From a virus, in IMG/VR virus record IMGVR_UViG_3300018057_000043, positions 1 to 22,782 of that record: 22,782 bases of DNA. The stretch is one strand, 5' to 3'. A model generated the notes under the pieces. That model saw only the letters and a program-made list of their open reading frames with translations, searched no databases and was not told the DNA's origin. Within the stretch, counting starts at the first letter, position 1, and each line of letters opens with the position of its first letter. The translations under genes were made by a program, and so were the position numbers. Shown piece by piece: positions 2,925 through 20,372 of this stretch.

Positions 2925-3117
2925 CGACAAGCCGATGCCGATCGATCGGGCGAAAGCAATCTGCGAAGTCGCGGACCGTCTCATCGACACGGCGAAGGTC
3001 GAAGTAAAACTTTACGACCTGGTCGGAGGTCGACCTGCGAGCCAATTCCTCGCTCTTCCTCGGGAGGTCGACGAAGCACCAAAAAGGCCGACGCTGATGT
3101 CGCCGCGGGTCAGCTGA
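2857..3117 (+). CDS. Conserved small prophage protein, 86 aa
   Basis: The N-terminus MPKNTIDDLRNHLFATIEAL followed by RAKAICEVADRLIDTAKVEV matches from memory a small protein widespread in prophages, often next to replication or HNH genes; its function is not established. It is mostly two amphipathic helices, then a short tail ending in a possible disordered segment. A GGAAGGATGG ribosome site precedes ATG 2857. The gene starts inside the 3' end of the HNH gene, a frequent arrangement for this pair. Confidence 0.8.
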   Translation: MPKNTIDDLRNHLFATIEALQDDDKPMPIDRAKAICEVADRLIDTAKVEVKLYDLVGGRPASQFLALPREVDEAPKRPTLMSPRVS

Positions 3118-3731
3118 TGCACTCCGAACTGCTCAATCTCCGGCTCTTCGCCTGTGCGATCGCGAAGACTTCCCTGCTCACCGGACTGGCTCCGGGAATC
3201 CTGTTGGCCTTCTTCGGTCCGCGCGTGGCGAAGTTCTGGTGCCCGCTCTCCATCGGCAAACAGTATCGCGTTAAGGGCTACCACACCGGAGATTTCGTGG
3301 GCGAAGTCGTGAGCGTAGATCGAAGCGTGGCGCGAGTGCGCGTGACTGATCCGATGCGACGGATTCCGCACGTTGAGAATCGCTGCTCGTTTCCCGAGTG
3401 TGTGCGGAAAGATTTTCACGACGGCGATCACGAATTTGCGCGAGTGCGCGAAGGTGCGCTGATCGAAGTTTGTTGGGAGTCCGCGAAATGGATTCCTGCA
3501 GTTGATCAAGTTTCCGGGGGCGGGCAGTTAGCCGCACTGAGAATCAGTTCAATACCGACACGGTTGAACCGGGCAACAAGCCCGCCCCGGAAAGTCTGGA
3601 GGCAAGCGTGCGCGAATGGATGTGGAAGTGTGACATCTGCCGCGCTGAGCGGCCTGACGTGTTCATCAGTGTTCACAAGCTGGATATCGGCCCCAAGGAA
3701 TTTCCGCCGGGAACAATGGTACGGAATGTGA
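3117..3731 (+). CDS. Membrane-anchored small protein with uncertain C-terminus
   Basis: The start overlaps the previous stop (TGATG at 3115-3119). Residues about 8-34 form a hydrophobic membrane segment. They are followed by a beta-rich part (YRVKGYHTGDFVGEVVSVDR) that could be a small SH3-like barrel, then a short Cys-containing stretch. The first 135 or so residues look like protein. The last 70, arginine- and serine-rich, do not. A one-base change in the G-rich run at 3516-3524 would end the protein at TAG 3529-3531. The annotated end at 3731 is therefore doubtful and overlaps the next gene by about 120 bases. Confidence 0.5.
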   Translation: MHSELLNLRLFACAIAKTSLLTGLAPGILLAFFGPRVAKFWCPLSIGKQYRVKGYHTGDFVGEVVSVDRSVARVRVTDPMRRIPHVENRCSFPECVRKDFHDGDHEFARVREGALIEVCWESAKWIPAVDQVSGGGQLAALRISSIPTRLNRATSPPRKVWRQACANGCGSVTSAALSGLTCSSVFTSWISAPRNFRREQWYGM

Positions 3732-3796
3732 AGTACTGCAACGACAATCCGGCCTGTAAGGAAGGCGCGGCAAACTGGAAAGAGAAAAGTCAATGA
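3608..3796 (+). CDS. Small zinc-finger protein, 62 aa
   Basis: GGAGG at 3598-3602 is 5 bases before GTG 3608. The product has MWKCDICRAERPD near the N-terminus and NVKYCNDNPAC near the C-terminus, a two-part CxxC/Cx5C zinc finger that I associate with small phage proteins of unknown role. The same frame stays open upstream to 3506 and reads like protein (for example NQFNTDTVEPGNKPAPESLE), but has no usable start codon there. The stop overlaps the next start (ATGA at 3793-3796). Confidence 0.7.
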   Translation: MREWMWKCDICRAERPDVFISVHKLDIGPKEFPPGTMVRNVKYCNDNPACKEGAANWKEKSQ

Positions 3797-3960
3797 GCGC
3801 CGCCAAACAATTCGCCCTCGAATCTCTTTCGAGCGCCGAACTGGATGCACGTGCGGCGGCGTCCGTCACGTCCCTACGGAGTCGGCACCAAGTCGTACAA
3901 CGGCTCGGCGGAAAAACGCGAGATGGATCGGCAGAGAGAGCTGGCCACGGCGAAGTATGA
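3793..3960 (+). CDS. Small hypothetical protein, 55 aa
   Basis: ATG 3793 overlaps the previous stop and follows a purine-rich GGAAAGAGAAAAG stretch. The first 25 residues (MSAAKQFALESLSSAELDAR) look like an amphipathic helix; the rest is arginine- and serine-rich and shares its DNA with the next gene in another frame. It may be the true N-terminus of that gene separated by a frameshift, or a short coupling frame. Confidence 0.35.
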   Translation: MSAAKQFALESLSSAELDARAAASVTSLRSRHQVVQRLGGKTRDGSAERAGHGEV

Positions 3961-4150
3961 AGCTCTGGGCTATGAGCCTTACGACGCTCCCCTGCTCTGC
4001 CACTGTCCGCAACGCGAGCACCCGCACGAACTCAGCGTGCACGCCCTGATTCGGCATGAGTGGTGGAAGCGCGAACTGCGGGACAAATGGCCCTGGTCGT
4101 TGATGGCTTCGACGCGGGAGGAGCCGAGCACGGAAAGGAAGGCGGCGTGA
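3845..4150 (+). CDS. Small hypothetical protein, up to 101 aa
   Basis: The best supported part is from ATG 3923 on: a helix, then APLLCHCPQREHPHELSVH, a His/Cys-rich motif that may bind zinc, then a Trp-rich helix. ATG 3845 has no clear ribosome site. The last 16 codons are encoded by the first copy of the 4.1-4.7 kb repeat, so the C-terminus (MASTREEPSTERKAA) looks added on. The stop overlaps ATG 4150 of the next gene. Confidence 0.55.
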   Translation: MHVRRRPSRPYGVGTKSYNGSAEKREMDRQRELATAKYEALGYEPYDAPLLCHCPQREHPHELSVHALIRHEWWKRELRDKWPWSLMASTREEPSTERKAA

Positions 4151-4155
4151 TGGCG
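4101..4155 (+). repeat. Gene-start repeat, copy 1
   Basis: First of three copies. The 33-base core is 4118-4150 and is identical to copy 2. With flank it matches copy 3 at 50 of 55 positions. It carries a strong purine-rich ribosome site (GGAAAGGAAGG), a reading frame from ATG 4103 to TGA 4150 encoding MASTREEPSTERKAA, and the ATG (4150) of the next gene. Here the short frame is fused in frame to the gene upstream. Confidence 0.9.
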
Positions 4156-4401
4156 CACGAATGTGAAACGTGCGGACTTTGGTGTTGCTGCGATGGCGAT
4201 GACACCGGCGGATTGCCACAGCCGCGCGATTGTCCACATTTGATCCGACATATGGAGGAACCGGACGATGAAGAATTGTCGGAGTGCCCGCGATGTGAAG
4301 GAACCGTAATTTATAACCTTCGGGCCTGCGCAATCTGCGGCGGAGACGGCTGGATTTCCGAACATTCGCTGCTGAAGGATGAGCCTGATGGAGTCGCGTG
4401 A
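4150..4401 (+). CDS. Zinc-finger protein, 83 aa
   Basis: The start is set by repeat copy 1, with GGAAGG 7 bases before ATG 4150. The product is Cys-rich: CETCGLWCCC at the N-terminus, and a second cluster CPRCEG...CAICGGDG resembling the CxxCxG repeats of DnaJ-type zinc domains. Between them is an acidic linker. A role in binding nucleic acid or protein is likely, but the family is not recognised. The 3' end runs 14 bases into the short frame that opens repeat copy 2. Confidence 0.65.
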   Translation: MAHECETCGLWCCCDGDDTGGLPQPRDCPHLIRHMEEPDDEELSECPRCEGTVIYNLRACAICGGDGWISEHSLLKDEPDGVA

Positions 4402-4438
4402 AATCGAGGAGCCGAGCACGGAAAGGAAGGCGGCGTGA
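4388..4438 (+). repeat. Gene-start repeat, copy 2
   Basis: The core at 4406-4438 is identical base for base to the copy 1 core. A short frame runs from ATG 4388 to TGA 4436-4438 and encodes MESREIEEPSTERKAA. The GTG start of the next gene (4435) lies inside the repeat, 4 bases after GGAAGG. Confidence 0.9.
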
Positions 4439-4647
4439 GCGGCCATCAGGTTACGACGCAGCGGCAGATCAGTCAGGAACTTTTGCGCGGGCAGATCGAG
4501 CGCGAGATCGACGCGGAGTATACAGCGTGGCAGAAAAATTGGGAGCGCGGTCATCGCGGCATAAAACCGACTCCGAATTTGAAGTGGTCATGGTACCGGA
4601 GTCGGTTGGTTCGGGAAATTTGCGACCGGCGTGCGGGGATTCGCTGA
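4435..4647 (+). CDS. Small helical protein, 70 aa
   Basis: GTG 4435 overlaps the TGA of the repeat-encoded short frame, and the ribosome site comes from the repeat. The protein is a charged, mostly helical polypeptide (ISQELLRGQIEREIDAEYTA) with a Trp-rich basic second half. No signal peptide or metal motif is visible and no family is recognised. Its TGA overlaps the ATG that opens copy 3 of the repeat. Confidence 0.55.
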   Translation: MSGHQVTTQRQISQELLRGQIEREIDAEYTAWQKNWERGHRGIKPTPNLKWSWYRSRLVREICDRRAGIR

Positions 4648-4699
4648 TGGCTTCCAAGCGCGAGGAGCTGAGCACGGAAAGGAAGGCGGCATGATGGCG
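4645..4699 (+). repeat. Gene-start repeat, copy 3
   Basis: The core at 4662-4694 matches copies 1 and 2 at 31 of 33 positions. It encodes a short frame from ATG 4647 to TGA 4694 (MASKREELSTERKAA). This ATG overlaps the stop of the gene before it, and its stop overlaps the ATG (4694) of the gene after it. Confidence 0.9.
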
Positions 4700-5017
4700 A
4701 ATCGCAGGCTTTGGTGGGCAAGTCTTTCTTCTGCTTCTCCGCGGTATAACGACTGGTTTTCGATTCTCGGCTCGAACGATGTGCCGCTGCTACATCCCGG
4801 ATCGGGCGAAACGGAATTGATCGGCGAAGGCAAGCACGAAGTTTACTTGCTCGATCTTTCGGCGCTCACCGAGCAGCAGATGGATCGACTGGTCGCATTC
4901 GTCGCGAAGAAATTCCGCGCCACGCCACAAGAAGTACGCGACGGGATCATGCGCGAAGGATTTCCCGTTAGAGCGGCGGACGTGTACATCTGCTTCGACC
5001 TGAGGACGTTCGTCTGA
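4694..5017 (+). CDS. Conserved-looking small phage protein, 107 aa
   Basis: GGAAGG in repeat copy 3 lies 7 bases before ATG 4694; ATG 4691 would add one Met. The second half has a regular alpha/beta pattern: EVYLLDLSALTEQQMDRLVA, then a helix, then PVRAADVYICFDLRTFV. That spacing looks like a compact fold. I have a weak memory of similar unnamed phage proteins. Function unknown. The stop overlaps the next start (TGATG). Confidence 0.65.
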   Translation: MANRRLWWASLSSASPRYNDWFSILGSNDVPLLHPGSGETELIGEGKHEVYLLDLSALTEQQMDRLVAFVAKKFRATPQEVRDGIMREGFPVRAADVYICFDLRTFV

Positions 5018-5271
5018 TGGAAAGCAAAGAAATCTTCGAGGCCTTCACTTCGCTGAAATGCGCGGGCTGCGGTGGAGTGAAACGCCGCCATAACGCCTTC
5101 TGCACCTGGTGCTATCGCGAGCTGCCGGCCGCGCTCAAGAGTTCGCTGTGGAAGCGCTTCGGCTCCGGCTTCGAGGAAGCGTACCAGGCTTCGTTGAGCT
5201 GGTTTCGCCTGCATCCGTTTCAGGGCGAGCATCGCGCGAAACAGAAGGGTTTGTGGGAGGACGCGTCATGA
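5017..5271 (+). CDS. Zinc-finger protein, 84 aa
   Basis: The N-terminal half has CAGCGG and CTWC about 15 residues apart, a classic small zinc ribbon. The rest is a helical, aromatic-rich segment (LPAALKSSLWKRFGSGFEEA). ATG 5017 overlaps the preceding stop. Similar phage proteins of unknown function exist in my memory. The stop overlaps ATG 5268. Confidence 0.7.
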   Translation: MESKEIFEAFTSLKCAGCGGVKRRHNAFCTWCYRELPAALKSSLWKRFGSGFEEAYQASLSWFRLHPFQGEHRAKQKGLWEDAS

Positions 5272-5438
5272 AAGTCATGGTGAGCTGTTCCTGGTGTCAC
5301 GAAGCCAACCAACTCCAGTGCGGCGGACGAAAAGTCTACTGCTGGAGTTGCGGACATCGCGCGGACGTTCCTCGCGTCGAGTGTGATTGCCGGAAGTGCA
5401 GAGTGCAGCACATCTTGGCGGAGGGGAGCGCAGCATGA
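5268..5438 (+). CDS. Small Cys-rich zinc protein, 56 aa
   Basis: GGGAGG at 5255-5260 is 7 bases before ATG 5268, and the start overlaps the previous stop (ATGA). Six cysteines occur as CSWC, CWSC and CDCRKC with a His between, enough for one or two zinc sites. This looks like a stand-alone zinc ribbon. Its stop overlaps ATG 5435. Confidence 0.7.
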   Translation: MKVMVSCSWCHEANQLQCGGRKVYCWSCGHRADVPRVECDCRKCRVQHILAEGSAA

Positions 5439-5764
5439 CCGCCAAGGAATTCGTCTGTCATCTCGCGCCGGTGGAACTGGAGCGCCTGGCCTCGATCTTC
5501 AACTTCCTCGCCGAGCACGAGCACGAATTGCAGCTGGCCAGCGGCCAACCTTTGAACGATGGACTCGACTTTGCCGCTTTTCTCCGCGAAGTGGCTGCCG
5601 CCCTCCAATTTCCGGACAGGGGCAAGGTAACCGAGAGGCAGCCGCAAGCGCGCTGGGATCGCACCTGCCCGGATTGCGACCACGAGCACGAAGGCAAAAC
5701 CGAGTGCAGCCATTATCTCGGCGAGGGCAAGTTCTGCCGGTGCGAATCGAAGGTGACGGCGTGA
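5435..5764 (+). CDS. Hypothetical protein with C-terminal Cys/His cluster, 109 aa
   Basis: GGAGGGG lies upstream of ATG 5435. Residues 1-70 are helical, with HEHELQLA-type His/Glu residues. The last 35 residues hold CPDCDHEHEG and CSHYLGEGKFCRC, a likely zinc site. It continues the zinc-finger-rich run and shares a GTGA overlap with the next gene. Function unknown. Confidence 0.65.
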   Translation: MTAKEFVCHLAPVELERLASIFNFLAEHEHELQLASGQPLNDGLDFAAFLREVAAALQFPDRGKVTERQPQARWDRTCPDCDHEHEGKTECSHYLGEGKFCRCESKVTA

Positions 5765-5985
5765 ACCCACTTGCCATCTTCGGCCTGATCCTCGGCGGCG
5801 TGGCCGTGACCTTCGCAGGCTTGGCGCTCTTCTTCGATGGTTACGAGCGCGGCCATCGGATCGGCAAACAGCAAGGCTACGAGGAAGGATTCACCGCGGG
5901 GAAAATTCGCGCCGACGAGTGGTGGTCGGACGCGGAAAGCGGAGTGCAGAAGGCGCGGGAGGAAATTTGGAAGGACGAAGGATGA
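5761..5985 (+). CDS. Small single-pass membrane protein, 74 aa
   Basis: GTG 5761 overlaps the previous stop. Residues 3-28 (PLAIFGLILGGVAVTFAGLALFF and a few more) form one hydrophobic helix. A soluble tail follows with glycine-spaced motifs (YERGHRIGKQQGYEEGF) and an acidic helical end. The likely topology is N-terminal anchor with cytoplasmic tail. No family is recognised. Confidence 0.65.
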   Translation: MNPLAIFGLILGGVAVTFAGLALFFDGYERGHRIGKQQGYEEGFTAGKIRADEWWSDAESGVQKAREEIWKDEG

Positions 5986-6110
5986 AAGAGGTCCTGCGGA
6001 TCGTGGCCGTCTCGCTGGCGATTCTGTCTTTGACTCTGGTCGAGATTTTCCGTCCGGACGTGATCGAGCGCGTGTCTCGCATTCTCGGAAGGTTTGCGGT
6101 ATTCCCGTGA
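5982..6110 (+). CDS. Tiny membrane protein, 42 aa
   Basis: ATG 5982 overlaps the preceding stop (ATGA), with GGACGAAGG upstream. Residues 5-22 (LRIVAVSLAILSLTLVEI) form one hydrophobic helix, followed by a short amphipathic basic segment. It lies between two other single-pass membrane proteins in a coupled chain, so they may act together; that is inference. Confidence 0.55.
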   Translation: MKEVLRIVAVSLAILSLTLVEIFRPDVIERVSRILGRFAVFP

Positions 6111-6487
6111 AGCTTTGGCACAAACGAATTCGGAGAGCGCTGCTGGCCACACTCGTTTCAGTGTTGCTGGTGCAGTGGGCGTATCCGGATTCTTACTTCG
6201 CGGCCTACGAGTACGTACGCATCGCAGCCACCAAAGGCCAGCGGCGCCGCGGCACGAAGATCCTGCAATGCGAGTTCCGGGAGCGTTCGCTGGTCGCTGT
6301 GGGCTACGAATACGGCCTGGCGGTTCGTCGCTTCTATCACGAAAAAAGATCAACCCGCGAGGTCTGCCTGGAACTGAGCTTTGCGGATCGCGATCTCAGC
6401 GATGCCGGGCTCGATGTTGAGTACTTCAATGCGAAGCTGCGCGGCCTGGGAGATGTGCGGGCAGCATGTGCGGAGGGGAAGAACTGA
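6107..6487 (+). CDS. Membrane-anchored hypothetical protein, 126 aa
   Basis: GTG 6107 overlaps the previous stop. The N-terminus is basic, then hydrophobic (RALLATLVSVLLVQWAY), which gives an inner-membrane anchor or uncleaved signal. The rest is soluble and beta-rich, with three cysteines. Unnamed. The last 150 bases overlap a - strand frame (6337-6645), and the stop overlaps ATG 6487. Confidence 0.6.
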   Translation: MKLWHKRIRRALLATLVSVLLVQWAYPDSYFAAYEYVRIAATKGQRRRGTKILQCEFRERSLVAVGYEYGLAVRRFYHEKRSTREVCLELSFADRDLSDAGLDVEYFNAKLRGLGDVRAACAEGKN

Positions 6488-6645
6488 TGAGCTACCGCAA
6501 AGAGAACGGGGCAGGTGATCCTCACTATGAGCCGGGAGGATTTCTCGCAGCTTTTACTGGTGTCCTCGATTATGCCAAGCAGGTAGATCACGGCGTGGGT
6601 TGGATCCTCGGCCTCATAGTCGAAGGAGACGCGGTAGTTTTTCAT
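6337..6645 (-). CDS. Last gene of the leftward operon (uncertain), 102 aa
   Basis: The first 32 residues (MKNYRVSFDYEAEDPTHAVI and after) look like real protein, a beta strand followed by a helix. The remainder is Ser/Arg-rich and opposite two + strand genes. It starts 11 bases after the HNH stop with only a weak ribosome site. Probably a short real gene whose end is degraded or frameshifted. Confidence 0.4.
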   Translation of the reverse strand: MKNYRVSFDYEAEDPTHAVIYLLGIIEDTSKSCEKSSRLIVRITCPVLFAVAHQFFPSAHAARTSPRPRSFALKYSTSSPASLRSRSAKLSSRQTSRVDLFS

Positions 6646-6768
6646 GGTCGCCTATCTTATCCCTTCTGTGAGTTGCACACCCAGTGCGCCGCCCCGTTAA
6701 TCGGATTGCCGTTCTTATCCTCGATGGCATCCTGTCTCCACGCTGCCCCAATGCCCCTGCGTCGCTGA
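6487..6768 (+). CDS. Last gene of the left + strand chain (uncertain)
   Basis: ATG 6487 has a strong ribosome site (GGAGGGG at 6472-6478) and overlaps the preceding stop, so the start looks real. The 93-aa product opens with MSYRKENGAGDPHYEPGGFL, then a helical stretch. From about residue 52 it overlaps the 3' end of the - strand HNH gene and reads poorly. The true gene may have been cut short by the convergent operon. Confidence 0.4.
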   Translation: MSYRKENGAGDPHYEPGGFLAAFTGVLDYAKQVDHGVGWILGLIVEGDAVVFHGRLSYPFCELHTQCAAPLIGLPFLSSMASCLHAAPMPLRR

Positions 6769-7019
6769 TGTTCGAAAGTGGCTTGGTTCAGGGTCAACCG
6801 CTTCCCGCAAAGCGAGCAGCGGCCTTCCTGGCGCAATAGCATGGCCTCTACGCGCCGCTTGTATTCCCTCCAGCCTGCCGGGGAATCCTGGCAGACTTCC
6901 CTGCCGTCGAGGTATCTGCGTACCGCTCCGTTCAGGATGAGTTCGTAGCGGAGGCTCGGTCCTTTTGGTTCCGGGTGCCAGGAGTAGGCGGAGCGCGGGA
7001 TGGGGCGGCGGCGGATCAT
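6657..7019 (-). CDS. HNH-type nuclease, 120 aa
   Basis: A compact HNH protein: after a basic N-terminus (MIRRRPIPRS) and an alpha/beta part, the core reads EGRCSLCGKRL, then FEHQRRRG, then GAAHWVCNSQKG. That gives a CxxC zinc pair, the central His in place of the usual DH, and the final H...C-N-x-x-K. ATG at 7019 is preferred over upstream codons because it fits the basic start. It is one of three HNH genes in the window. It may be a homing-type or recombination nuclease; its target is unknown. Confidence 0.7.
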   Translation of the reverse strand: MIRRRPIPRSAYSWHPEPKGPSLRYELILNGAVRRYLDGREVCQDSPAGWREYKRRVEAMLLRQEGRCSLCGKRLTLNQATFEHQRRRGIGAAWRQDAIEDKNGNPINGAAHWVCNSQKG

Positions 7020-7204
7020 GGTTGAGTAAGTCTCTCGCTGAGGAGTTCGCAGATTTGCTTGTTTTTGAAGCATTCGGCGCTGCCGGGAATGTGCCAGTGA
7101 GGGCGCTCATCGCAAAAGCGTCCTTCGGTGTATTCAGCCACAATGATGTCGCCTTCAAAACGCACCCAGTAGAAACCGGGTATTCGCTTTCGGTCTGGTT
7201 TCAT
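7016..7204 (-). CDS. Small hypothetical protein, 62 aa
   Basis: AAGGAG lies 6 bases before ATG 7204, so this start is better than ATG 7255, which would add MRRRPIPPPTPRRKEKS. The product (IPGFYWVRFEGDIIVAEYTEGRF and after) is a small beta-rich protein of a type common in phage accessory operons. No name can be given. The stop overlaps the HNH start. Confidence 0.6.
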   Translation of the reverse strand: MKPDRKRIPGFYWVRFEGDIIVAEYTEGRFCDERPHWHIPGSAECFKNKQICELLSERLTQP

Positions 7205-7257
7205 CGACTTCTCCTTCCGGCGCGGAGTGGGCGGGGGAATGGGGCGGCGGCGCATGG

Positions 7258-7482
7258 TCACAGTTCGGTCTTCATCGACTCCATGCAGCCGGGGCAATAG
7301 TCCGCGCCATTGATGACGCCCCAACCTTCCTGCTTCGCGGCCTTGCGCAGAATCTTGGCGGTTGCGGGCGAGATGAAGTGTTGGCAGGTTTCGTGTGAAG
7401 TTTCACCGTAGATGTCGGGGAAGGTCACATCTCCCGAGCCGTGTTCGTTGTCGCAGAAGATCAATCGAGCCGAGCGAATCAT
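7258..7482 (-). CDS. Small Cys/His-containing protein, 74 aa
   Basis: The N-terminus is MIRSARLIFCDNEHGSGDV and the C-terminus has DYCPGCMESM; the four cysteines and histidines could bind a metal. AAGGA lies 8 bases before ATG 7482, within a 21-base tandem duplication that supplies a second upstream copy. Function unknown. Confidence 0.6.
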   Translation of the reverse strand: MIRSARLIFCDNEHGSGDVTFPDIYGETSHETCQHFISPATAKILRKAAKQEGWGVINGADYCPGCMESMKTEL

Positions 7483-7483
7483 A

Positions 7484-7523
7484 GAAAGTTTCCTTCAGAC
7501 TTCAGAGAGTTTCCTTCAGACTT
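7484..7523 (-). repeat. 21-base tandem repeat carrying stop and ribosome site
   Basis: The 16-base unit AGTTTCCTTCAGACTT occurs at 7487-7502 and 7508-7523, 21 bases apart. On the - strand each copy reads AAGTCTGAAGGAAACT, containing a TGA and an AAGGA ribosome site. The distal copy holds the stop of the upstream gene; the proximal copy serves the gene starting at 7482. Confidence 0.85.
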
Positions 7524-7734
7524 TTTTATTGCCTTCGTAGCTCAGCCCCAATTCGCATCGCCGTCCAAGCTCCGCTTCGCGCTTATCCCAGATTTCGACC
7601 TCGCACTCAAGCGAGAGTTTGTGCAGCAAGAGACAAGTTTCGATGCGGTCTTTCAGTGGCTTCGTTCGGTCGCTCCAGACATGATCGTGAGCCCGGACGA
7701 GCACCAGCCAACCGGAATTGTCGTAGATGCTCAT
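7516..7734 (-). CDS. Small hypothetical protein, 72 aa
   Basis: ATG 7734 overlaps the previous stop (ATGA). The protein starts with a beta strand (WLVLVRAHDHVW), then has a helix with two Cys and an acidic/basic end (LSLECEVEIWDKREAELG). No motif is recognised. Its TGA is part of the 21-base tandem repeat. Confidence 0.6.
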   Translation of the reverse strand: MSIYDNSGWLVLVRAHDHVWSDRTKPLKDRIETCLLLHKLSLECEVEIWDKREAELGRRCELGLSYEGNKKV

Positions 7735-7973
7735 CGGGCTTTGAGTTTCCGGGCGAGTTTGCGCGCTTCCCTCTCGCGGCGGCTGTAGATTTCAGCGGCC
7801 AGGTCGAATACGCCGCGCCAGGAGACTTCGTAGCGAGTCCTGGTGCCGAGCAATCGGACGGCGGCATGCTCGGGGAAAACTTCGATGACAATCTCGCGTT
7901 CCTTGCCTCGATAGCGGGCAACCTGGTTCGTGATGAACGAGAGACGGCTTTTGCGTTCGGCAATTTTCTTCAT
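7731..7973 (-). CDS. Small basic protein, 80 aa
   Basis: GGGAGA lies 3-4 bases before ATG 7973. The product is very basic: a helical N-terminus, a central beta part (REIVIEVFPEHAAVRLLGTR) and a C-terminal helix RREREARKLARKLKAR. It could bind nucleic acid, judging only by charge. Translation is coupled on both sides (ATGA overlaps). Confidence 0.65.
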   Translation of the reverse strand: MKKIAERKSRLSFITNQVARYRGKEREIVIEVFPEHAAVRLLGTRTRYEVSWRGVFDLAAEIYSRREREARKLARKLKAR

Positions 7974-8221
7974 GGTCTCCCTATTTTTCGCAAGCACACC
8001 AACAGCAAACGCGCCGCTTGAAAATCATTCGTGTCTCGTCCGCGCGCCCGCAGGTACCAGACGGCATGCCGTATCAGCCTTCGTGCGATCATCCGGGAGG
8101 ATTCCACCCCCGTGGAATCCTCCCGTCTTTCTTTCGCCAGATGTGCCGTCTGTTGGTTCACCCGGCGAAACCAGTGGCGTTCCCAAGTGAGAACGCGGCG
8201 AATTTCAGAGTTGGAGATCAT
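7970..8221 (-). CDS. Small basic protein, 83 aa, containing a strong hairpin
   Basis: Start and stop overlap the neighbouring genes by 4 bases, which supports a real gene. The protein is Arg-rich and helical (SEIRRVLTWERHWFRRVNQ; RRLIRHAVWYLRARGRD). A perfect 14-bp inverted repeat interrupts its middle, encoding EDSTGVESSR. Unnamed. Confidence 0.55.
   Translation of the reverse strand: MISNSEIRRVLTWERHWFRRVNQQTAHLAKERREDSTGVESSRMIARRLIRHAVWYLRARGRDTNDFQAARLLLVCLRKIGRP
8094..8125. repeat. Perfect 14-bp inverted repeat with a 4-base loop
   Basis: Arms 8094-8107 (CGGGAGGATTCCAC) and 8112-8125 (GTGGAATCCTCCCG) pair perfectly around CCCC. On the + strand it is followed by TCTTTCTTTC, a weak T-rich tail. 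It lies within the coding frame of the 83-aa - strand gene. Confidence 0.85.
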
Positions 8222-8700
8222 GCGGCGTCTTCGTCGTCTCCGGTCTCGCCGAGAGCTTTGCGAACGATCTCACGCGGATCGATCTTATGTTTCTTTTTGA
8301 AGTTCTCGAAAGCCTCTTCGGCGGCGCTTAGGGTGTCACACAGCCGCTTCAGTTCGTCCGCGTCCTTCGGCTCGAAGAAATTGCCGTAGCTGACCTGCTC
8401 AGACTTTTGCTCGTCATCAAACTTGACGAGGATGTTGCGGTTGCTGCCGTGGATGCCGAGGATGACTCCGGTGCGAAGCTTCCCCGGCTTGTCGTTCCAG
8501 CTTTGTTTTTCCCACATGCAAAACGGGATGCTCACGCGTTTCGAGCGAGCAATGCGGCCTGCCAGTTTTTCGGTGAGTTGCTTGAGCGATTCGGCGCGGA
8601 CCTGGTCGCCTTCGTAGTCGGCGAAGAATTCGCCCTTGTCGCTGATCTGTACAGCGAACTTCTTGCCCTTCACTTCGATCTTGCTGAAATCTTTGAGCAT
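8218..8700 (-). CDS. Hypothetical protein, 160 aa, acidic C-terminus
   Basis: AGGAG lies 8 bases before ATG 8700. The N-terminal third is a beta-rich segment (KIEVKGKKFAVQISDKGEFF) and helix. A second beta-rich part (GVILGIHGSNRNILVKFDDE) could be a small barrel. A long helix (ELKRLCDTLSAAEEAFENF) and an acidic tail ETGDDEDAA follow. No family is recognised. It lies downstream of the P-loop NTPase gene, separated by 71 bases holding two hairpins, so it may be expressed at a different level. Confidence 0.7.
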   Translation of the reverse strand: MLKDFSKIEVKGKKFAVQISDKGEFFADYEGDQVRAESLKQLTEKLAGRIARSKRVSIPFCMWEKQSWNDKPGKLRTGVILGIHGSNRNILVKFDDEQKSEQVSYGNFFEPKDADELKRLCDTLSAAEEAFENFKKKHKIDPREIVRKALGETGDDEDAA

Positions 8701-8715
8701 CGTTGGTCTCCTCGG

Positions 8716-8765
8716 TGCGCGCTTCACGCGCAGACCGGATACTAAACATTTGCGTAGTACCCGGT
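8716..8765 (-). repeat. Two consecutive hairpins between NTPase and downstream gene
   Basis: First hairpin in the transcript: arms 8755-8765 and 8734-8744, 11 pairs of which one is G-U, 10-base loop. Second: arms 8727-8732 and 8716-8721, 6 bp, 5-base loop. Neither has a T-run, so RNA processing or differential stability is more likely than termination. Confidence 0.6.
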
Positions 8766-8771
8766 TTCGAC

Positions 8772-10022
8772 CTAGGCGATCTCTTCCCGATTCGGTTGGT
8801 CGAGCACCGAAACCACTCCCTGCGGCCCCTTCGGTTTCACCGCTTCCAGGCTCTTCGCGGTCATCACCTGCAACAGTGTTAGGGCGTGCCCTGGATGGAG
8901 CACGTCTTCGGTCGCGAGATGCAGCAGCGCGGCGAGCGAAGCCTGGTCCGTGATCTTCTCTCCCTTGCCGATCCGCGCGCGCAGCGCCTTCACGATCTCG
9001 ACGTTCTGTTTGAGCCGGATGGTCGCGATCTCTTCCTCCATCCTGGACCAGGAGCTGAAGCCATTCAGGTATTCGAGCGTCAGGTTGCGATACATGGCGT
9101 CGAGTTTCGAGCGTTTCTCGCCGCCGGGAAAGCAGTGGTTGAGCAGATTGTCCAGTTCTTCGAGGAAGCCTTTGCGCGCGGCCTGGTCCTGCGCCCTCGG
9201 AGTTTTGCCGGAGACGATCAGCTCGCGCGTGCTCGATGGTTCCGGCGCGGGTGCATCGACCTTCGCCATGAAGTCCAGGTAGGGCCGGAAAGCCTGGAAC
9301 ACCGCCTTGTAGTCTCCCGCTCTATACATTCCCTGCTGGCCGGGGAATACGAATTGCATCCCATTCAGCAGCCCTGCCGTGGCATCTTTGATCACGTCGC
9401 AGAGATATTCGGGCTGGGTGCGGATGCGGAGCAATTCGCGGATGCGGCGCTTGTTGCGCGACATCTCCAGTTCGAGATCGGCTTCGTAGCCGAAATTCTC
9501 ACCCCCTCCAGCGTTGAATTTCGAGTTTCCCTGGACCAGTCGCGAGCGGCCTTTCTCGTCTTCGACGTTGTTCCACTCATAGCCGATGCGCCCGACGCCG
9601 ATGGCGTGAAAGTTTCCCAGGCGGAAGCCGCGGATGATCGGACGCCACTCGTTCATCAGTTGCTCGCGGCGCTCGAAGGGAAGATAGCCGTCTTCGTAGC
9701 TGAATTCCGACAGCCCTTCCTTCCAGGGAACGGTCAGATCGTCCTGCACCAGGACACAGCAGCCCTTGTCGGCCAGCTCCACGGATTCGGCCACCTGGTT
9801 CAGGCTTTCGCCGGAGACGATCGTGATGGGGACTTTCTCCACGTCGAAGATGGTCCGCTTGTAGATGCGCCAGCGGTCATCGGAAGAATAGGCGACGACC
9901 GGCGCATGGTCGCAGAGTTCTTTGGAGATTCCCACGGCCAGGCGGGCCGAGGTGCCGGACTTGCCGGAACCGTTCAGCCCGTCGATCGAGGCCTTGAGGT
10001 AGGACTGGTTAGTGTTAGACAT
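8772..10022 (-). CDS. Phage P-loop NTPase, 416 aa (Sak4/RecA-like or AAA type)
   Basis: Walker A is clear at residues 15-22 (GLNGSGKS). A candidate Walker B lies near 88-95 (CCVLVQDD). These are followed by a mixed alpha/beta core to about 280, then a helical C-terminal third. Phages often carry an AAA/RecA-like ATPase of this general form near recombination genes (Sak4 family) and this may be a divergent one, but it is longer than typical Sak4. ATG 10022 follows AGGAG by about 10 bases; ATG 10031 is an alternative three codons upstream. The start overlaps the end of a 49-aa membrane protein gene. It is the largest gene of the leftward operon and likely acts in DNA recombination or replication. 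Confidence 0.75.
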   Translation of the reverse strand: MSNTNQSYLKASIDGLNGSGKSGTSARLAVGISKELCDHAPVVAYSSDDRWRIYKRTIFDVEKVPITIVSGESLNQVAESVELADKGCCVLVQDDLTVPWKEGLSEFSYEDGYLPFERREQLMNEWRPIIRGFRLGNFHAIGVGRIGYEWNNVEDEKGRSRLVQGNSKFNAGGGENFGYEADLELEMSRNKRRIRELLRIRTQPEYLCDVIKDATAGLLNGMQFVFPGQQGMYRAGDYKAVFQAFRPYLDFMAKVDAPAPEPSSTRELIVSGKTPRAQDQAARKGFLEELDNLLNHCFPGGEKRSKLDAMYRNLTLEYLNGFSSWSRMEEEIATIRLKQNVEIVKALRARIGKGEKITDQASLAALLHLATEDVLHPGHALTLLQVMTAKSLEAVKPKGPQGVVSVLDQPNREEIA

Positions 10023-10164
10023 CGGGTGCATTCTCCTTTCGAGATTTGAACTTTTTGTGCCCGAGCAAGAGGAAGGGGAAGGCCACAAATCCGCACATGC
10101 AGGCTGCCTTGGCGATGCAGAGCAAGAACAGCAGGACGTCGGCAAGCTCGCTGTTTTCAGCCAC
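10015..10164 (-). CDS. Tiny membrane protein, 49 aa, coupled to the NTPase
   Basis: GGAGG lies 6 bases before GTG 10164, and the start follows the upstream stop at once. Residues 9-35 (DVLLFLLCIAKAACMCGFVA and FPFLLLG) form one hydrophobic segment, followed by a basic tail (HKKFKSRKE). The last codons overlap the first codons of the NTPase gene in another frame (ATGTCTAA), so translation should be coupled. Confidence 0.6.
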   Translation of the reverse strand: MAENSELADVLLFLLCIAKAACMCGFVAFPFLLLGHKKFKSRKENAPDV

Positions 10165-10340
10165 GGGATTCCTCCGCGTATTTGCCGAGCCTGATACTTT
10201 CGAGCAACTCGCCAGCGGTAATTGGCTGGCCGCTGAGCGGGTCGCGGAATGGACTGCCGTGCCAGACAGCGATGCCGTTGTCGAAGCATTCAGCGACTTG
10301 ATCGAGAAAACGCGGCGATGTCTTGTGCTCTCCTATCCAC
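10157..10340 (-). pseudogene. Small gene with an apparent +1 frameshift
   Basis: A perfect AGGAGGT ribosome site (10346-10352) precedes GTG 10340, but this frame stops after 16 codons (TGA 10290-10292). The frame one base over reads well to TGA 10157-10159 (FLDQVAECFDNGIAVWHG and after) yet lacks a start. Skipping one T in the TTTT at 10307-10310 joins them into a 60-aa protein. It may be a sequence error, a mutation or programmed +1 slippage: UUU followed by U allows perfect re-pairing. Confidence 0.5.
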
Positions 10341-14866: not shown

Positions 14867-15310
14867 ATGCCCAACGCTCCGCCCTCGATCTGCCGGGACT
14901 GCAATGCGACGGCGATCGCCGGCACTCCCTATTGCGAGGCTCACCAGAATGACAATCGCGCACTCCGGGCCGCGCGCGATCGCAACGTTGCCCGCCGCGA
15001 CTCCGGACTCAAGCGTCTCTACGACAGCGCGGCCTGGCGCAAGCGGACCGTTCCGCTCATCCTTGGTCGGGATCCGCTCTGCCAGCTCGCCATCATCTGC
15101 GAAGGCCGCGCGCTCTCAACCGAAGTCGACCATGTCATTCGAGCCGGGGCCTACATCGCCGCGCACCAGGGCGACGAGACTTACTTCTTTGACCCCGCCA
15201 ACCTCCGCGGGCTCTGTCGCGCCGACCACAGCCACAAGACGGCGCTGGAGAACCGAGGACTTTGGAAGGAACCGGAACGACCGATCGATCCAGACGCCGC
15301 GAGGGGGTAG
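14867..15310 (+). CDS. HNH endonuclease of the DNA-packaging module, 147 aa
   Basis: GAAGGAG precedes ATG 14867. The N-terminus has a zinc motif (CRDC...CEAH). A helical linker follows, then the HNH core: DPLCQLAIIC, STEVDHVIRAG and DPANLRGLCRADHSHKTALE, showing the DH, the N of NL and the final H with flanking Cys. HNH genes just ahead of P27-type terminase genes in HK97-like phages act with the terminase in cos cleavage and packaging (established for that family). The position here fits exactly. A cos site may lie close by, but none can be recognised. Confidence 0.88.
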   Translation: MPNAPPSICRDCNATAIAGTPYCEAHQNDNRALRAARDRNVARRDSGLKRLYDSAAWRKRTVPLILGRDPLCQLAIICEGRALSTEVDHVIRAGAYIAAHQGDETYFFDPANLRGLCRADHSHKTALENRGLWKEPERPIDPDAARG

Positions 15311-15395: not shown

Positions 15396-15686
15396 GTGGC
15401 CAAGCTGCGTAAAAACGTGCGTTTCAGCGTGATCCTGGTCGACGGCCGCCGTTTTCCGAAAATCGTGCGCGCACCAGCCGGAAGAAGGATGCCCGAGGCC
15501 CTTGTCGAAGCTGTGCTCACTCGGGAAGCCGAACTCGTCGAGAAACACTTCCCTGGCCGCGAGTTCCGCCTGGTCCCGCTGGCCAGCGGCGACTTCAACT
15601 TCGTCGAAATGGGCAAGGAAGAGGCCGAACTGCGCGCCAGGCACAGCGAATTGCACGAGAAGTACACGGAGGCAGCGGCCGTCTGA
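15396..15686 (+). CDS. Small hypothetical protein in packaging module, 96 aa
   Basis: GTG 15396 begins the first plausible strand (KNVRFSVILVDGRRFPKIVR); no ribosome site is evident and ATG 15489 is an alternative. The product is alpha/beta, with a C-terminal helix (MGKEEAELRARHSELHEKYT). It lies between the HNH and small terminase genes and overlaps the latter (TGATG). No family is recognised. Confidence 0.6.
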   Translation: MAKLRKNVRFSVILVDGRRFPKIVRAPAGRRMPEALVEAVLTREAELVEKHFPGREFRLVPLASGDFNFVEMGKEEAELRARHSELHEKYTEAAAV

Positions 15687-16213
15687 TGGGTGGAAAAGGA
15701 TCCGGCGGCCGCAATCGGAAGACGACGGCGCAGAAGAAAGCCGAAGGAAACCGCGGGAAGCGCCGGCTCAATCAAAACGAGCCGCCGACGCTGCCGGGCG
15801 AGCCAGCGATGCCTGCTTTCGTCGCCAAAGACATCGCGGTGCGGCAGGTCTGGAAGGAATTGGTTGCGGTCCTCGCCGATTATGGCGTGCTGCGCAAGAC
15901 CGACGCGATCGCGATCGGCACGCTGTGCTCGAACTATGTGCTCTTCGCCCAAGCCGATGCCTCGGTTCGTAAGCACGGGCACGTCATCGTCACGGAACTC
16001 GACCAGGAAACCGGAGTCGCTGTCCTCAAAACCAATCCTTCGTTCAGGGTCCGCAGTGACGCATTGAAGCAACTGCGCGCCGGCTGGCAGGCCTTTGGAC
16101 TGGATCCGCGATCGGCGGCAGGCATTCAGCTTCCCGACAATCCGGACAAGCCCAAGACCGGGCTCGATCTGATCAAGTTGGCAAAAAGCGCGAAGGACGA
16201 GATCGTTCACTGA
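15686..16213 (+). CDS. terS: Terminase small subunit, P27 family
   Basis: The 175-aa protein has a basic, flexible N-terminus (MGGKGSGGRNRKTTAQKKAE and a GN-x-G-KR motif) typical of P27-type small terminases, then a helical core (WKELVAVLADYGVLRKTDAI) and a central helical domain. The NPSFRVRSDALKQLRAGWQA segment followed by FGLDPRS is a hallmark of the family. Small terminases bind the packaging site and feed DNA to the large subunit. The gene overlaps both neighbours by one base, consistent with a coupled packaging operon. Confidence 0.93.
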   Translation: MGGKGSGGRNRKTTAQKKAEGNRGKRRLNQNEPPTLPGEPAMPAFVAKDIAVRQVWKELVAVLADYGVLRKTDAIAIGTLCSNYVLFAQADASVRKHGHVIVTELDQETGVAVLKTNPSFRVRSDALKQLRAGWQAFGLDPRSAAGIQLPDNPDKPKTGLDLIKLAKSAKDEIVH

Positions 16214-17385
16214 TGATTCAGCACGAAACCAAATGGAAAAGCAGCGCGGCGCAGTCTCTGCTGGCGGAGAGCTGCAGCCGGATCCCGACCGTCGGGCGCT
16301 ACGTGCTCGACGTGCTCACCGGAAACGTGCTCACGGGTCGATTAGTCTTCCTGGCAGTCGAGCGCTTCCTCCATGACCTGGAGCGGGCGCACAACCGCGA
16401 TGCATCGTTCCCTTTTTTCTTTGACCAGGGTTCGGCGGTTGCGATCATCAAGTACTTCCGCGATCTCTGCCCGTTCAGTCTCGTCGCCTTTCAGCAGTTC
16501 GCGGTGAGCAATCTATTCGGCTGGAAGAAAATGGGCGTGGAGTGCTCGGTGCATCCCACGGGCCATCGCCGCTTTCAAACCGCGTATATCGAAATGGGAA
16601 AAGGCTCGGGCAAGACGCCGCTGGTCGCCGGCATTTCGACCTATGGCGTCTGCGCCGATGACGAGCCGAGTGCAGAGGTCTACATCGCAGCTCCCTCGAA
16701 GGACCAGGCCGCGATCTGCTTTCGCGATGCAGTGCGCATCGTCGATGAGAGTCCCGAGCTGGCGCGCATCTTCAAGAAGCATGGCTGCTCCGGCAAGATG
16801 CTCTCCGGGAATCTTTCCTTCGGCACCTCGTTCATGCGGCCGATTTCCGCCGAGCACAAAACGCTCGACGGTCCCCGTCCGCACATGATCGTCGCCGACG
16901 AGCTTCACGAGCACCACACGACTCTGGTTCTCGATAAACTCACCGCCGGCTTCAAAGCGCGGCATCAGCCTCTGGCCCTCGAAATCACGAACTCCGGTTG
17001 GGACCGGGAGACGATCTGCTGGTATCACCACGACTATTCGCGCCAGGTGCTCGAAGGCATCATCCAGAACGAGGCCTGGTTCGCCTACGTGTGCCAGCTG
17101 GACGCCTGCGAGTCCTGCCGCGCGGCGGGCAAAGAGCAACCGACGTGCGATGACTGCGACTCCTGGCTCGACGAGCGAGTCTGGATTAAAGCGAATCCCG
17201 GTCTGGGCACGATCCTGCAGAAAAGCTATCTCGACAAGCAAGTGAAAGAGGCGCTGGAGATCCCGGCCACGCGCAATCTGAAACAGCGGCTCAACTTCTG
17301 TATCTGGACGCAGTCGGAGGAGCGCTTCATTTCACCCGAAGCCTGGCGCGTGTGCGCGTGGGAAGAGGCGGGCGCCGCCGCGTGA
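16213..17385 (+). CDS. terL: Terminase large subunit, ATPase half
   Basis: The 390-aa product matches the N-terminal ATPase domain of phage large terminases. Walker A is at 129-135 (GKGSGKT); Walker B with catalytic Glu is at 226-230 (IVADE), followed by LHEHH. A CxxC-x9-CxxC zinc-like loop lies at 299-315. The protein ends right after FISPEAWRVCAW, which in intact terminases is followed within a few residues by the linker and nuclease domain. The nuclease is instead encoded 352 bases further on, after a separate gene. The TGA at 17383 overlaps the GTG of that gene. No frameshift restores a single protein. Confidence 0.93.
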   Translation: MIQHETKWKSSAAQSLLAESCSRIPTVGRYVLDVLTGNVLTGRLVFLAVERFLHDLERAHNRDASFPFFFDQGSAVAIIKYFRDLCPFSLVAFQQFAVSNLFGWKKMGVECSVHPTGHRRFQTAYIEMGKGSGKTPLVAGISTYGVCADDEPSAEVYIAAPSKDQAAICFRDAVRIVDESPELARIFKKHGCSGKMLSGNLSFGTSFMRPISAEHKTLDGPRPHMIVADELHEHHTTLVLDKLTAGFKARHQPLALEITNSGWDRETICWYHHDYSRQVLEGIIQNEAWFAYVCQLDACESCRAAGKEQPTCDDCDSWLDERVWIKANPGLGTILQKSYLDKQVKEALEIPATRNLKQRLNFCIWTQSEERFISPEAWRVCAWEEAGAAA

Positions 17386-17738
17386 GAGTTTTCTATTTCG
17401 GCTGTATCGACGTGGCTGGCCATTACATGCATGCGAGTTCACCGCCTCGTAATCTGGAAGAGCGGCGAGCAGTCAGTCAACTCACGCACAGTAACCCGTG
17501 GGGACTCAATATCGATGGAGGTCTCTGTCCTCGACGCGGGGGTGCGCTCGTCCATCACAAAGATGGATGGACGGCGCTGGCCTTCGAGGATTTCACCGTA
17601 GATTCGCGCCCTGGATCGAACAGCGTTTTTCTCGCTGAGGGCACTTACGACTTTGACGAAATGGCTCGAATCGCTGAGGAGTATTTCCCAGCGGTATGGG
17701 CTCGATGCGGCCGGGGATTGATCCCGGCTAAGGTCTAG
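17382..17738 (+). CDS. Gene inserted between the two terminase halves, 118 aa
   Basis: GTG 17382 overlaps the ATPase stop (GTGA) and TAG 17738 overlaps the GTG of the nuclease half. The protein starts MRVFYFGCIDVAGHYMHASS, has a central Gly/Arg/His part and ends in a helix-rich segment (FLAEGTYDFDEMARIAEEYF). I dimly recall unnamed phage proteins opening with FYFGC...GHY, but no function is known. There is no HNH, LAGLIDADG, GIY-YIG or intein motif, so it is not a known homing element. Base composition appears less GC-rich than its neighbours, hinting at separate origin. Confidence 0.75.
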   Translation: MRVFYFGCIDVAGHYMHASSPPRNLEERRAVSQLTHSNPWGLNIDGGLCPRRGGALVHHKDGWTALAFEDFTVDSRPGSNSVFLAEGTYDFDEMARIAEEYFPAVWARCGRGLIPAKV

Positions 17739-18430
17739 TGAGTGCTTCGCCCTACATCGGCGATCCGGTCGCCTGGCGCCGGCACCAGATCGAAGTTCTG
17801 CGCGGCAAGATCTGCTATGGCGGGCTCGATCTCGGAGTGGTCAATGACTTCACCTGCCTCGCGCTCTATTTCCCCAAGCAGAAGGAGATGCTCAAGGACC
17901 TCCTGCTGCTCTGGTCCTGGGTTCCGGAGAATGTTGACCATCATCAACCGCTCAAGGAGCGTTTCGGCTACGAGGACTGGGTGCGCGGAGGCTTTCTGAA
18001 ACGGACGTCCGGCAACCGCACCGATTACGCCATCGTGCGCGACGACATCCTCAAGCTCGACCAGGAGTATCGCATCGAGGAACTGGCCTTCGATCCCGCG
18101 TACTCGACCCAGTTGGTGCAGGAGCTCATGGGCCACGGCGTGAACATGGTCGAGCATCGTCAAGGCACGCTCTCGATGACCTATCCCATCAAGGAATTCC
18201 AGCGCCGGATCATGGGCCGCGACTTTGCACACGGGATGAACCCGCTGTTGACCTTTATGGTCGACAACCTGGTCGTGAAATCGGACGGCAAAGGGAACCT
18301 GTGCTGCGTGAAGCCGGACAATCCCAAGTCGCCGCGCAAAATCGACGGAGCCGTGGCTTCGATTATGGCCATGGGCCGGGCTGCGGCCAATCCGGAGGCA
18401 ACGTCGAGCGGGAAAGTGTTCTTCGGATGA
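17738..18430 (+). CDS. terL: Terminase large subunit, nuclease half
   Basis: The 230-aa product is the C-terminal RNase H-like nuclease domain. YGGLDLGVVNDF puts Asp31 as the first metal ligand and Asp37 close by; FDPAYST (Asp119) and KIDGAVASIMAMGRA (Asp203) give the other conserved acids. The first 23 residues (about to LRG) match the linker that normally follows the ATPase domain, so little or nothing of the terminase is lost. GTG 17738 overlaps the TAG of the inserted gene. It should cut the concatemer at the end of packaging, acting with the separate ATPase protein. Confidence 0.92.
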   Translation: MSASPYIGDPVAWRRHQIEVLRGKICYGGLDLGVVNDFTCLALYFPKQKEMLKDLLLLWSWVPENVDHHQPLKERFGYEDWVRGGFLKRTSGNRTDYAIVRDDILKLDQEYRIEELAFDPAYSTQLVQELMGHGVNMVEHRQGTLSMTYPIKEFQRRIMGRDFAHGMNPLLTFMVDNLVVKSDGKGNLCCVKPDNPKSPRKIDGAVASIMAMGRAAANPEATSSGKVFFG

Positions 18431-18602: not shown

Positions 18603-20372
18603 TTGGGCATCCGCACACAACTAAGAAGCTTTTGGCGCAATGCTTCCTTTCGCGCCGACGTCGGGCTGGGCATCGTGGGCTCGCCTTCGCCCGATTCGGA
18701 TTACTGGTACCACGGCCTCGGCTATCGCAGCGAAGCCGGTCCGATGGTCTCGCCGGCAACGGCGACCCGGCTGGCCGCAGTTTTTTCCTGCACGCGAGTG
18801 TGTGGGGAAACGCTCGGTTCCCTGCCCTTCGGCATCTACCGGGAACGGAAATCCGGCGGCCGCGACCTGGCCTCGGCTCACCCGGCCTACGAACTTTTTC
18901 TGCAGCCGAATCCGTGGCAGACGGCGATGGAATTTTTCGAGATGATGCAGGTCCATCTCGAACTCCGCGGCAACGCATATTCGATCAAGGTTCCAGGCAA
19001 CGGCCGCGCCATCGATCAGCTGATCCCGTTGCATCCCGACCGCGTCCGAGTTTACTTGCTGCCGAACAATCGCCTGCGCTACGAAGTGACCGCCTATTCC
19101 ACCGGACAAATCGACCGCTACACCCAGGACGAGATCCTGCACGTGCGTGGCATGAGCTATGACGGCATCATGGGGATCTCGACCGTGAGCGCCATGGCCG
19201 AGGTGATCGGCGTGGGCCTGGCGCAACAGCAGCACCGCGCGCGCTACTTCCACAACAGCGCCATTCCTTCGCTCTCGGTTGAGACGGTGAAGATGACCGA
19301 CGAGGCGCGCGAGACGATGGTGAACTCCATCTCGGAGAAATTTTCCGGCGAAGGCGCCTTTCGGGTGATTGCCCCGCCGCCCGGGGCGAAGGTCACAGCG
19401 CTTGGACTCACGAACAAGGATTCCCAGCTGATTGAAGCCTCGCAGGCAACCCGCACCGAGGTCTGCGGCGCCTGGCGCGTGCCCCCGCACAAGATCGGCG
19501 ACTTGAGCAAAGGGACTTTTTCCAACATCGAGCAACAGAACATCGAGTTTGCCACCGACTGCATCCGCCCGCGTGTGATTCGCATGGAGCGCCGCGTCGA
19601 TCGCGACGTCATCGATTCGCTGCGCGCCTATGAATCGGCGATGGGCGACTTCTACCTGGTCTTCAACATGGATGCGTTGTTCCGCGGCGACATGAAGAGC
19701 CGCTACGAGGCTTACAGCCAGTCGCTCAGCTGGCAGACGCGCGACGAGATCCGCTCGACCGAAGGCAAGAACCCGATCGGGGGCGCTGCCTCCGAGCTGC
19801 TGGTGCCGGTGAATCTCGAAACCGTCAGCCAGGCGGAAACCCGCTCGTTCAGCAAGCACGGCGTGGACTCGGCGGAGGAAGAAAGCGATCAAGGCCAGAG
19901 CGAACAGGAGCTGGGCGGCGAGCCAGAGACTCCGCAGGATGGAACCGACGAGACTAGCGAAGCTCATGCCCGGCTGCAGTATTCCCGTCTGCGGGCCATG
20001 GCTCTGAGCGCGGCCAGCCGCATGGCCAGGCGCGAGGCGCGTTCCTTGCTCCGGATCAATGCTTCCGAGCAGTTCGCGGCAGACTTGAGCAAACTCTACG
20101 AGGACCTGGCGCCGGTGATCTCCGAAGCGATGGTTCTGCCGCTCGCCAGCGCGCAGCGTTACCTCGAGGATCATCGCAGCCTGCTCCTCGAGGCTCACGG
20201 GCGTCCGCTGAGTTTCGCGCGCGAACCGATCATTGCGCTGATTGAGGACTCGGCACCCGCGGTGCTCGCCGCCCTGGCGCTTGGTGCCCGAGGGCGGAGC
20301 AGATTCTCGCGGTCCGCGGTACCAAATTCCCAGACATCGCACCTGCCAGCAGCTTGGAGCGGGCTCGCTTAG
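18603..20372 (+). CDS. HK97-type portal protein with extended C-terminus, 589 aa
   Basis: The TTG start at 18603 follows the previous stop closely and gives the expected basic N-terminus (GIRTQLRSFWRNA). Family signatures appear in order: AVFSCTRVCGETLGSLPFGI near 60-80, the LELRGNAYS and DQLIPLHPDRV block near 115-145, DEILHVRGMSYDGIMGIST near 175, and RVPPHKIG with NIEQQNIEF near 295-320. Residues after about 420 are an acidic Ser/Glu linker and a 110-aa helical domain not found in the shortest members. The portal forms the ring through which the terminase pumps DNA and the tail attaches. Confidence 0.93.
   Translation: MGIRTQLRSFWRNASFRADVGLGIVGSPSPDSDYWYHGLGYRSEAGPMVSPATATRLAAVFSCTRVCGETLGSLPFGIYRERKSGGRDLASAHPAYELFLQPNPWQTAMEFFEMMQVHLELRGNAYSIKVPGNGRAIDQLIPLHPDRVRVYLLPNNRLRYEVTAYSTGQIDRYTQDEILHVRGMSYDGIMGISTVSAMAEVIGVGLAQQQHRARYFHNSAIPSLSVETVKMTDEARETMVNSISEKFSGEGAFRVIAPPPGAKVTALGLTNKDSQLIEASQATRTEVCGAWRVPPHKIGDLSKGTFSNIEQQNIEFATDCIRPRVIRMERRVDRDVIDSLRAYESAMGDFYLVFNMDALFRGDMKSRYEAYSQSLSWQTRDEIRSTEGKNPIGGAASELLVPVNLETVSQAETRSFSKHGVDSAEEESDQGQSEQELGGEPETPQDGTDETSEAHARLQYSRLRAMALSAASRMARREARSLLRINASEQFAADLSKLYEDLAPVISEAMVLPLASAQRYLEDHRSLLLEAHGRPLSFAREPIIALIEDSAPAVLAALALGARGRSRFSRSAVPNSQTSHLPAAWSGLA

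Follow-up and report, generated by a model that had tools for sequence, protein, structure and literature searches.

Models of viral DNA packaging assign to the hinge of the large terminase (TerL) the coupling of ATP hydrolysis to DNA movement and the switch between pumping and cutting. In HK97, TerL (PDB 6z6d) belongs to a P27-like/HNH packaging module and is one polypeptide, in which an ATPase domain is joined to a nuclease domain with the catalytic triad D302/D388/D471; its authors speculate that the linker strand between them switches cleavage and translocation (PMC9410871). When the TerL domains of phage T4 are separated without the hinge, they keep their activities and lose translocation (PMC9958956). 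Genes for TerL that exist as at least two coding pieces with DNA between them are known from Jug phages (PMC12363816), ICP1 (PMC10448857) and Bastillevirinae (PMC11878797), where the interruptions are group I introns and splicing restores one protein. Essential enzymes that are functional as two polypeptides, with a gene between their parts, have been described for the ribonucleotide reductase of Aeromonas phage Aeh1 (nrdA, interrupted by mobE) and the DNA polymerase of phage 25 (gene 43), the inserts being homing endonucleases or untranslated spacers (PMC2988022). The OM43 phages MEP401/402 carry a split DNA polymerase, a different enzyme, for which the authors leave an intron open (PMC10580990).

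The window analyzed here, a stretch of 22,782 nucleotides of viral DNA, encodes a TerL that resembles that of HK97 in its two domains, its triad and its module, but is cut in the linker and β-strand that join the domains. As in the intron-split genes, DNA lies between the coding pieces and, as in Aeh1 and phage 25, a gene stands there; in the clade of the window, however, various genes other than endonucleases occupy the site, and what is split is a packaging motor. A literature search, largely of openly accessible papers, found no report of TerL as separate ATPase and nuclease proteins. What is new is an essential phage gene split of a known sort, here in TerL; intron-split terL and split enzymes were known already.

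Results

The packaging module of the window is listed in Table 1. A preliminary description of this DNA had placed the ATPase motifs and the nuclease acids of TerL in two genes, linked to a third between them by start/stop overlaps, and the open reading frames, coordinates and junctions are as claimed. At the first junction, GTGA, the GTG start at 17382 lies over the TGA stop ending at 17385; at the second, TAGTG, the TAG stop ends at 17738, where the GTG start begins. The stop of the small terminase (TerS) gene overlaps the start of the ATPase gene in TGATG, and the portal and protease genes downstream of the split TerL are both intact. Elsewhere in the window, in surroundings that are otherwise accessory, a large minus-strand ORF carries the P-loop-like motif GLNGSGKSGT. 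The portal gene of one relative (L003) contains a large in-frame, intein-like insertion (CLPGDVLVST... to ...FIGELVIIKNSN), which the portals of other relatives lack.

The division of motifs between two genes is borne out by profile matches and by alignment to HK97 TerL. The ATPase half (TerL-A) matches PF03354 above the cut-off and contains Walker A (GKGSGKT), Walker B (VADE) and the catalytic carboxylate, its motif residues being invariant in six split relatives. The nuclease half (TerL-N) matches PF20441 above the cut-off and is an RNase H-like nuclease; its three catalytic acids, D31, D119 and D203, align in 6z6d with HK97 D302, D388 and D471 (numbered as in PMC9410871; the 6z6d chain appears to carry 10 additional N-terminal residues, an offset that all three Asp fit). 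In place of a single polypeptide for both domains there are two genes in different frames, and likewise in 11 relatives. Columns 168-470 of phrog_9 are matched by TerL-A and columns 463-672 by TerL-N; these cover the break continuously, and hence nothing is missing between the halves. Of the 286 columns of the Pfam TerL_nuclease model, 15-83 fall in TerL-A and 89-284 in TerL-N, so that by Pfam's boundaries the break is internal to the 'nuclease' model. On the HK97 structure it lies in a short linker and unique β-strand between the ATPase lid and the nuclease core, just before Asp302 (PMC9410871). TerL-A ends a few residues past the last matched HK97 position, about 287, and TerL-N supplies about 30 residues upstream of Asp302 together with everything downstream. 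The cut is thus at the domain linker, as had been proposed, even though the Pfam model itself is crossed, and because the break falls within this short linker the ATPase and nuclease domains are each whole. The protein ends at the break are conserved, with ...AWRACAWEE and a few residues on the ATPase side and M..LYIGDPxAWRRHxIExL...GGLDLG on the nuclease side. The structure prediction for the nuclease half, built on only six sequences, is mediocre (pLDDT 66), and its best PDB match is HK97 TerL.

Table 1. Features of the window and of related contigs. The labels 'KOW-like' and 'cysteine-rich' were read from the sequence by eye, strong family matches being absent.
Contig	Feature	Position	Strand	Evidence or remark
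Window	Large ORF with P-loop-like motif	8772-10289	-
Window	HNH endonuclease, packaging-module context	14867..15310	+	phrog_144 E 9.9e-17
Window	TerS, P27 / Terminase_4 type, context	15686..16213	+	PF05119 E 6.1e-16; phrog_83 E 8.5e-30
Window	TerL-A, ATPase + lid half of TerL, 390 aa	16213..17385	+	PF03354 E 9e-23
Window	Cargo gene, 118 aa	17382..17738	+	relatives in L008-L014; predicted fold pLDDT 87
Window	TerL-N, RNase H-like nuclease half of TerL, 230 aa	17738..18430	+	PF20441 columns 89-284, E 1.5e-21
Window	Portal protein, context	18603..20372	+	PF04860 E 1.1e-85
L003	Gap: 71-aa KOW-like gene		-
L004, L005	Gap: two small cysteine-rich genes and KOW-like gene		- (cysteine-rich pair)
L006	Gap: 58-aa gene		-
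L015	Gap: one gene		+
L016	Gap: 60-72-aa gene		-
L017	Gap: two genes		+
L027	Gap: no clear gene			148 nt
L052	Gap: 66-aa gene		+
L003	Portal gene with intein-like insertion	6845-9400	+
L009	Relative of 118-aa protein and TerL-like gene	497-2477
L016	Short repeats at intergenic joints	2845-6928
L017	Short repeats at intergenic joints	4810-7473
L076	Distant split TerL	3935-5969
L129	Two-piece terL, Staphylococcus phage vB-SscS-F1	765-2722		MW589261.1

The same linker break occurs in 11 further IMG/VR contigs, which come from nine metagenomes and belong to one clade (L002, L003, L004, L005, L006, L015, L016, L017, L027, L031 and L052; L015 covers the ATPase side alone and in L006 the ATPase gene is truncated at the contig end), which makes 12 with the window and excludes a sequencing error. 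That TerL is decaying or non-functional, with another terminase packaging the DNA or the phage being defective, is highly improbable in light of these relatives. Some prophages do have frame-disrupted terminases, and TerL of Streptococcus phage phi-SsuNJ2_rum is broken inside its ATPase domain, but the break described here is clean and repeated in many lineages, with conserved ends and intact catalytic residues. Between the window and L002, its nearest relative (90% identical; about 82% DNA identity), dN/dS is 0.078 for the ATPase half, 0.085 for the nuclease half and 0.092 for TerS. After the split both TerL halves, at about 0.08, are under strong purifying selection comparable to that on TerS, with no sign of relaxed selection or of lost catalytic residues. 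In 13 records of up to 68 kb, all of them metagenomic fragments, neither TerL domain was found a second time, and the genes downstream are undamaged. Halves with inactivating changes, which the preliminary description had named as evidence against its reading, were not found, and its proposal of a two-protein TerL, not a decayed gene, is supported by the conserved ends, catalytic residues and selection across the 12 contigs.

A search of genome contigs with the nuclease profile found no host or prophage relatives, and the ATPase profile gave one match, a distant intact TerL in a Rokubacteria MAG. Cultured phages were represented by an evenly spread sample of 60 of the 1749 records with a related TerL; none of the 60 has a linker-split TerL, and two have two-piece matches, both broken inside the ATPase domain. 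The terL of Staphylococcus phage vB-SscS-F1 is annotated in two pieces, separated by 218 nt within the ATPase domain; introns usually account for such gaps, but Rfam found none here.

Over 8 kb of alignment between the window and L002 there is a single interruption, of 380 nt in the window and 27 nt in L002. The two TerL genes overlap by 4 nt in L002 and by 8 nt in L031, and the insert is absent from both. The intervening gene, to which the preliminary description had attributed the split, is accordingly not needed for it, as these two relatives are split without an insert. In the window and most relatives the gaps measure 148-989 nt, which in many relatives would leave room for small introns, and introns explain most reported cases of split terL. 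It is nonetheless very unlikely that the gap is a self-splicing intron, or what remains of one, that houses an ORF and restores a single TerL frame on excision. In contrast to the intron-split genes, L002 and L031 have no intervening DNA, hence nothing to splice and no room for a group I or group II intron, and their frames differ, which excludes splicing for them; in other relatives it is unlikely, since the gaps contain antisense genes, share no common sequence and yield no intron in Rfam. The Rfam result, which covers the window and ten relatives, has limited sensitivity and is weak alone, the 218-nt Staphylococcus gap being negative as well. The RNA fold of the insert is unremarkable (z -1.4).

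Programmed frameshifting or stop readthrough would yield a fused TerL alongside the separate proteins, and at the junctions of L031 and of the distant contig L076 the open frames do overlap, by about 98 and 330 nt respectively. The shared open stretch in L002, however, is about 10 nt, the window and most relatives have intervening stops over their 148-989 nt, and the frame relation among relatives may be +1, -1 or 0. Because frame relation and gap length both change, a conserved frameshift is ruled out, and we consider this route to a fused protein extremely unlikely. The preliminary description had also held that all three frames can be translated in series; the junctions of the window do allow such coupling, which is particular to this phage since its relatives carry unrelated, often antisense genes at the same place. 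Of the three-gene order for which it proposed a metagenome search, the split recurs in the 11 contigs, whereas the middle gene differs or is absent.

The 118-aa ORF of the window is a real gene and not a chance frame, as homologues occur in seven contigs (43-50% identity, best tblastn E 7e-28) with an invariant core, HHKDGWTA. The protein has no match in Pfam, PHROG or NCBIfam. Its fold is predicted with confidence and matches no characterized protein; the one confident match is an uncharacterized viral protein (TM 0.59/0.64), and no relative of solved structure was found. Neither this protein nor the cargo of the relatives has an endonuclease match, and the split thus lacks the endonuclease gene of a mobE-type insertion. 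The GTGA and TAGTG junctions link the gene translationally to both halves, as would befit a third motor subunit bridging ATPase and nuclease, but we give this idea very little credence: the gene is missing from the site in L002, unrelated proteins take its place in other relatives, and its homologues lie in unrelated gene neighborhoods. Its GC3 is foreign, at 56% the lowest of 28 window ORFs measured (the rest 61-82%), which fits the expectation for a recent arrival. The 118-aa gene is a passenger that is not required for the TerL split, nor is it what keeps TerL split, as the overlapping, insert-free gene pairs of L002 and L031 show. In L009, the homologue lies directly upstream of a TerL-like gene with an intein-like insertion near Walker A.

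Traces of exchange are visible at the joint. L004 and L005, from two metagenomes, are 99.96% identical over 6.7 kb and carry, between the TerL genes, cargo A, 28 nt that duplicate the start of the nuclease gene, 42 nt that duplicate the end of the ATPase gene, and cargo B, in that order; in L003, whose ATPase gene is 97.5% identical, cargo B stands alone with a border of its own. The duplicated borders would most simply be read as the product of an unequal crossover between two phages differing in cargo at this site. Repeats were also considered as a cargo-mobilizing signal; none occur in the window or L003, and the candidate was rejected because the repeats of L016 and L017 are present at other intergenic sites as well. 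These short repeats (TTGGCTCTTAGCT; GAGTCAATGAGTCA) stand at several intergenic joints, far above chance, and flank the L016 cargo on both sides; they may possibly be recombination boundary sequences.

A full-length TerL tree rejects a single split clade (AU p 4e-7), and its strongly supported branches require four changes. One of these is a distant lineage, L076 and L077 (identical over 6.2 kb), whose TerL breaks at the same linker; the two genes overlap by 11 nt, cargo is absent, and the nearest relative, L059, has an intact TerL. The split of L076/L077 is independent of that in the window clade, and at least two origins of split TerL are needed overall. Within the clade the count is less direct. 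Intact L045, L046 and L048 fall inside the split clade in the ATPase-half tree and group with L053 in the nuclease-half tree (98/93), which suggests that their ATPase and nuclease domains were likely exchanged at the same linker; such exchange would blur the count of split events. In the nuclease tree, the well-supported branches are compatible with one origin within the clade, and the data fit either several splits or one split followed by re-fusions.

Discussion

Our findings are best explained by a functional large terminase made as two polypeptides, whose halves probably assemble non-covalently and whose joint hosts exchangeable cargo, a reading that we hold with good confidence. The conservation of a two-gene TerL and the use of its joint as a hotspot of cargo insertion are evident across the clade. 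One protein would comprise the ATPase and its lid, the other the RNase H-like nuclease preceded by a short N-terminal extension of its own; the two would be made from neighboring or overlapping genes, translated separately, and docked non-covalently with TerS and the portal. Translation could be coupled through the cargo gene in the window, and in L002 and L031 through direct overlap of the TerL genes. From conservation and selection we infer that the two proteins bind each other and package DNA. Such assembly is not trivial, given that T4 domains without the hinge lose translocation (PMC9958956). The joint would tolerate insertion, with small accessory genes landing there and moving from phage to phage as the conserved flanks recombine, and being absent from some relatives; the terminase halves would serve as homologous arms for the exchange of whatever stands between them, which we take as the presumptive route of cargo arrival.

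We lean slightly toward the broader view that this is a motor with separate, exchangeable ATPase and nuclease subunits, in which the covalent hinge is dispensable, the joint is a site where accessory genes land and are swapped, and the halves themselves are open to reassortment among phages. Because the hinge is naturally cut in this clade, the role of the linker becomes accessible to direct test: docking without a covalent bond is enough, or coupling proceeds via other contacts. Annotation may mislabel phages with a split TerL as terminase-defective. In these phages, a core virion-assembly gene serves as a site of cargo insertion.
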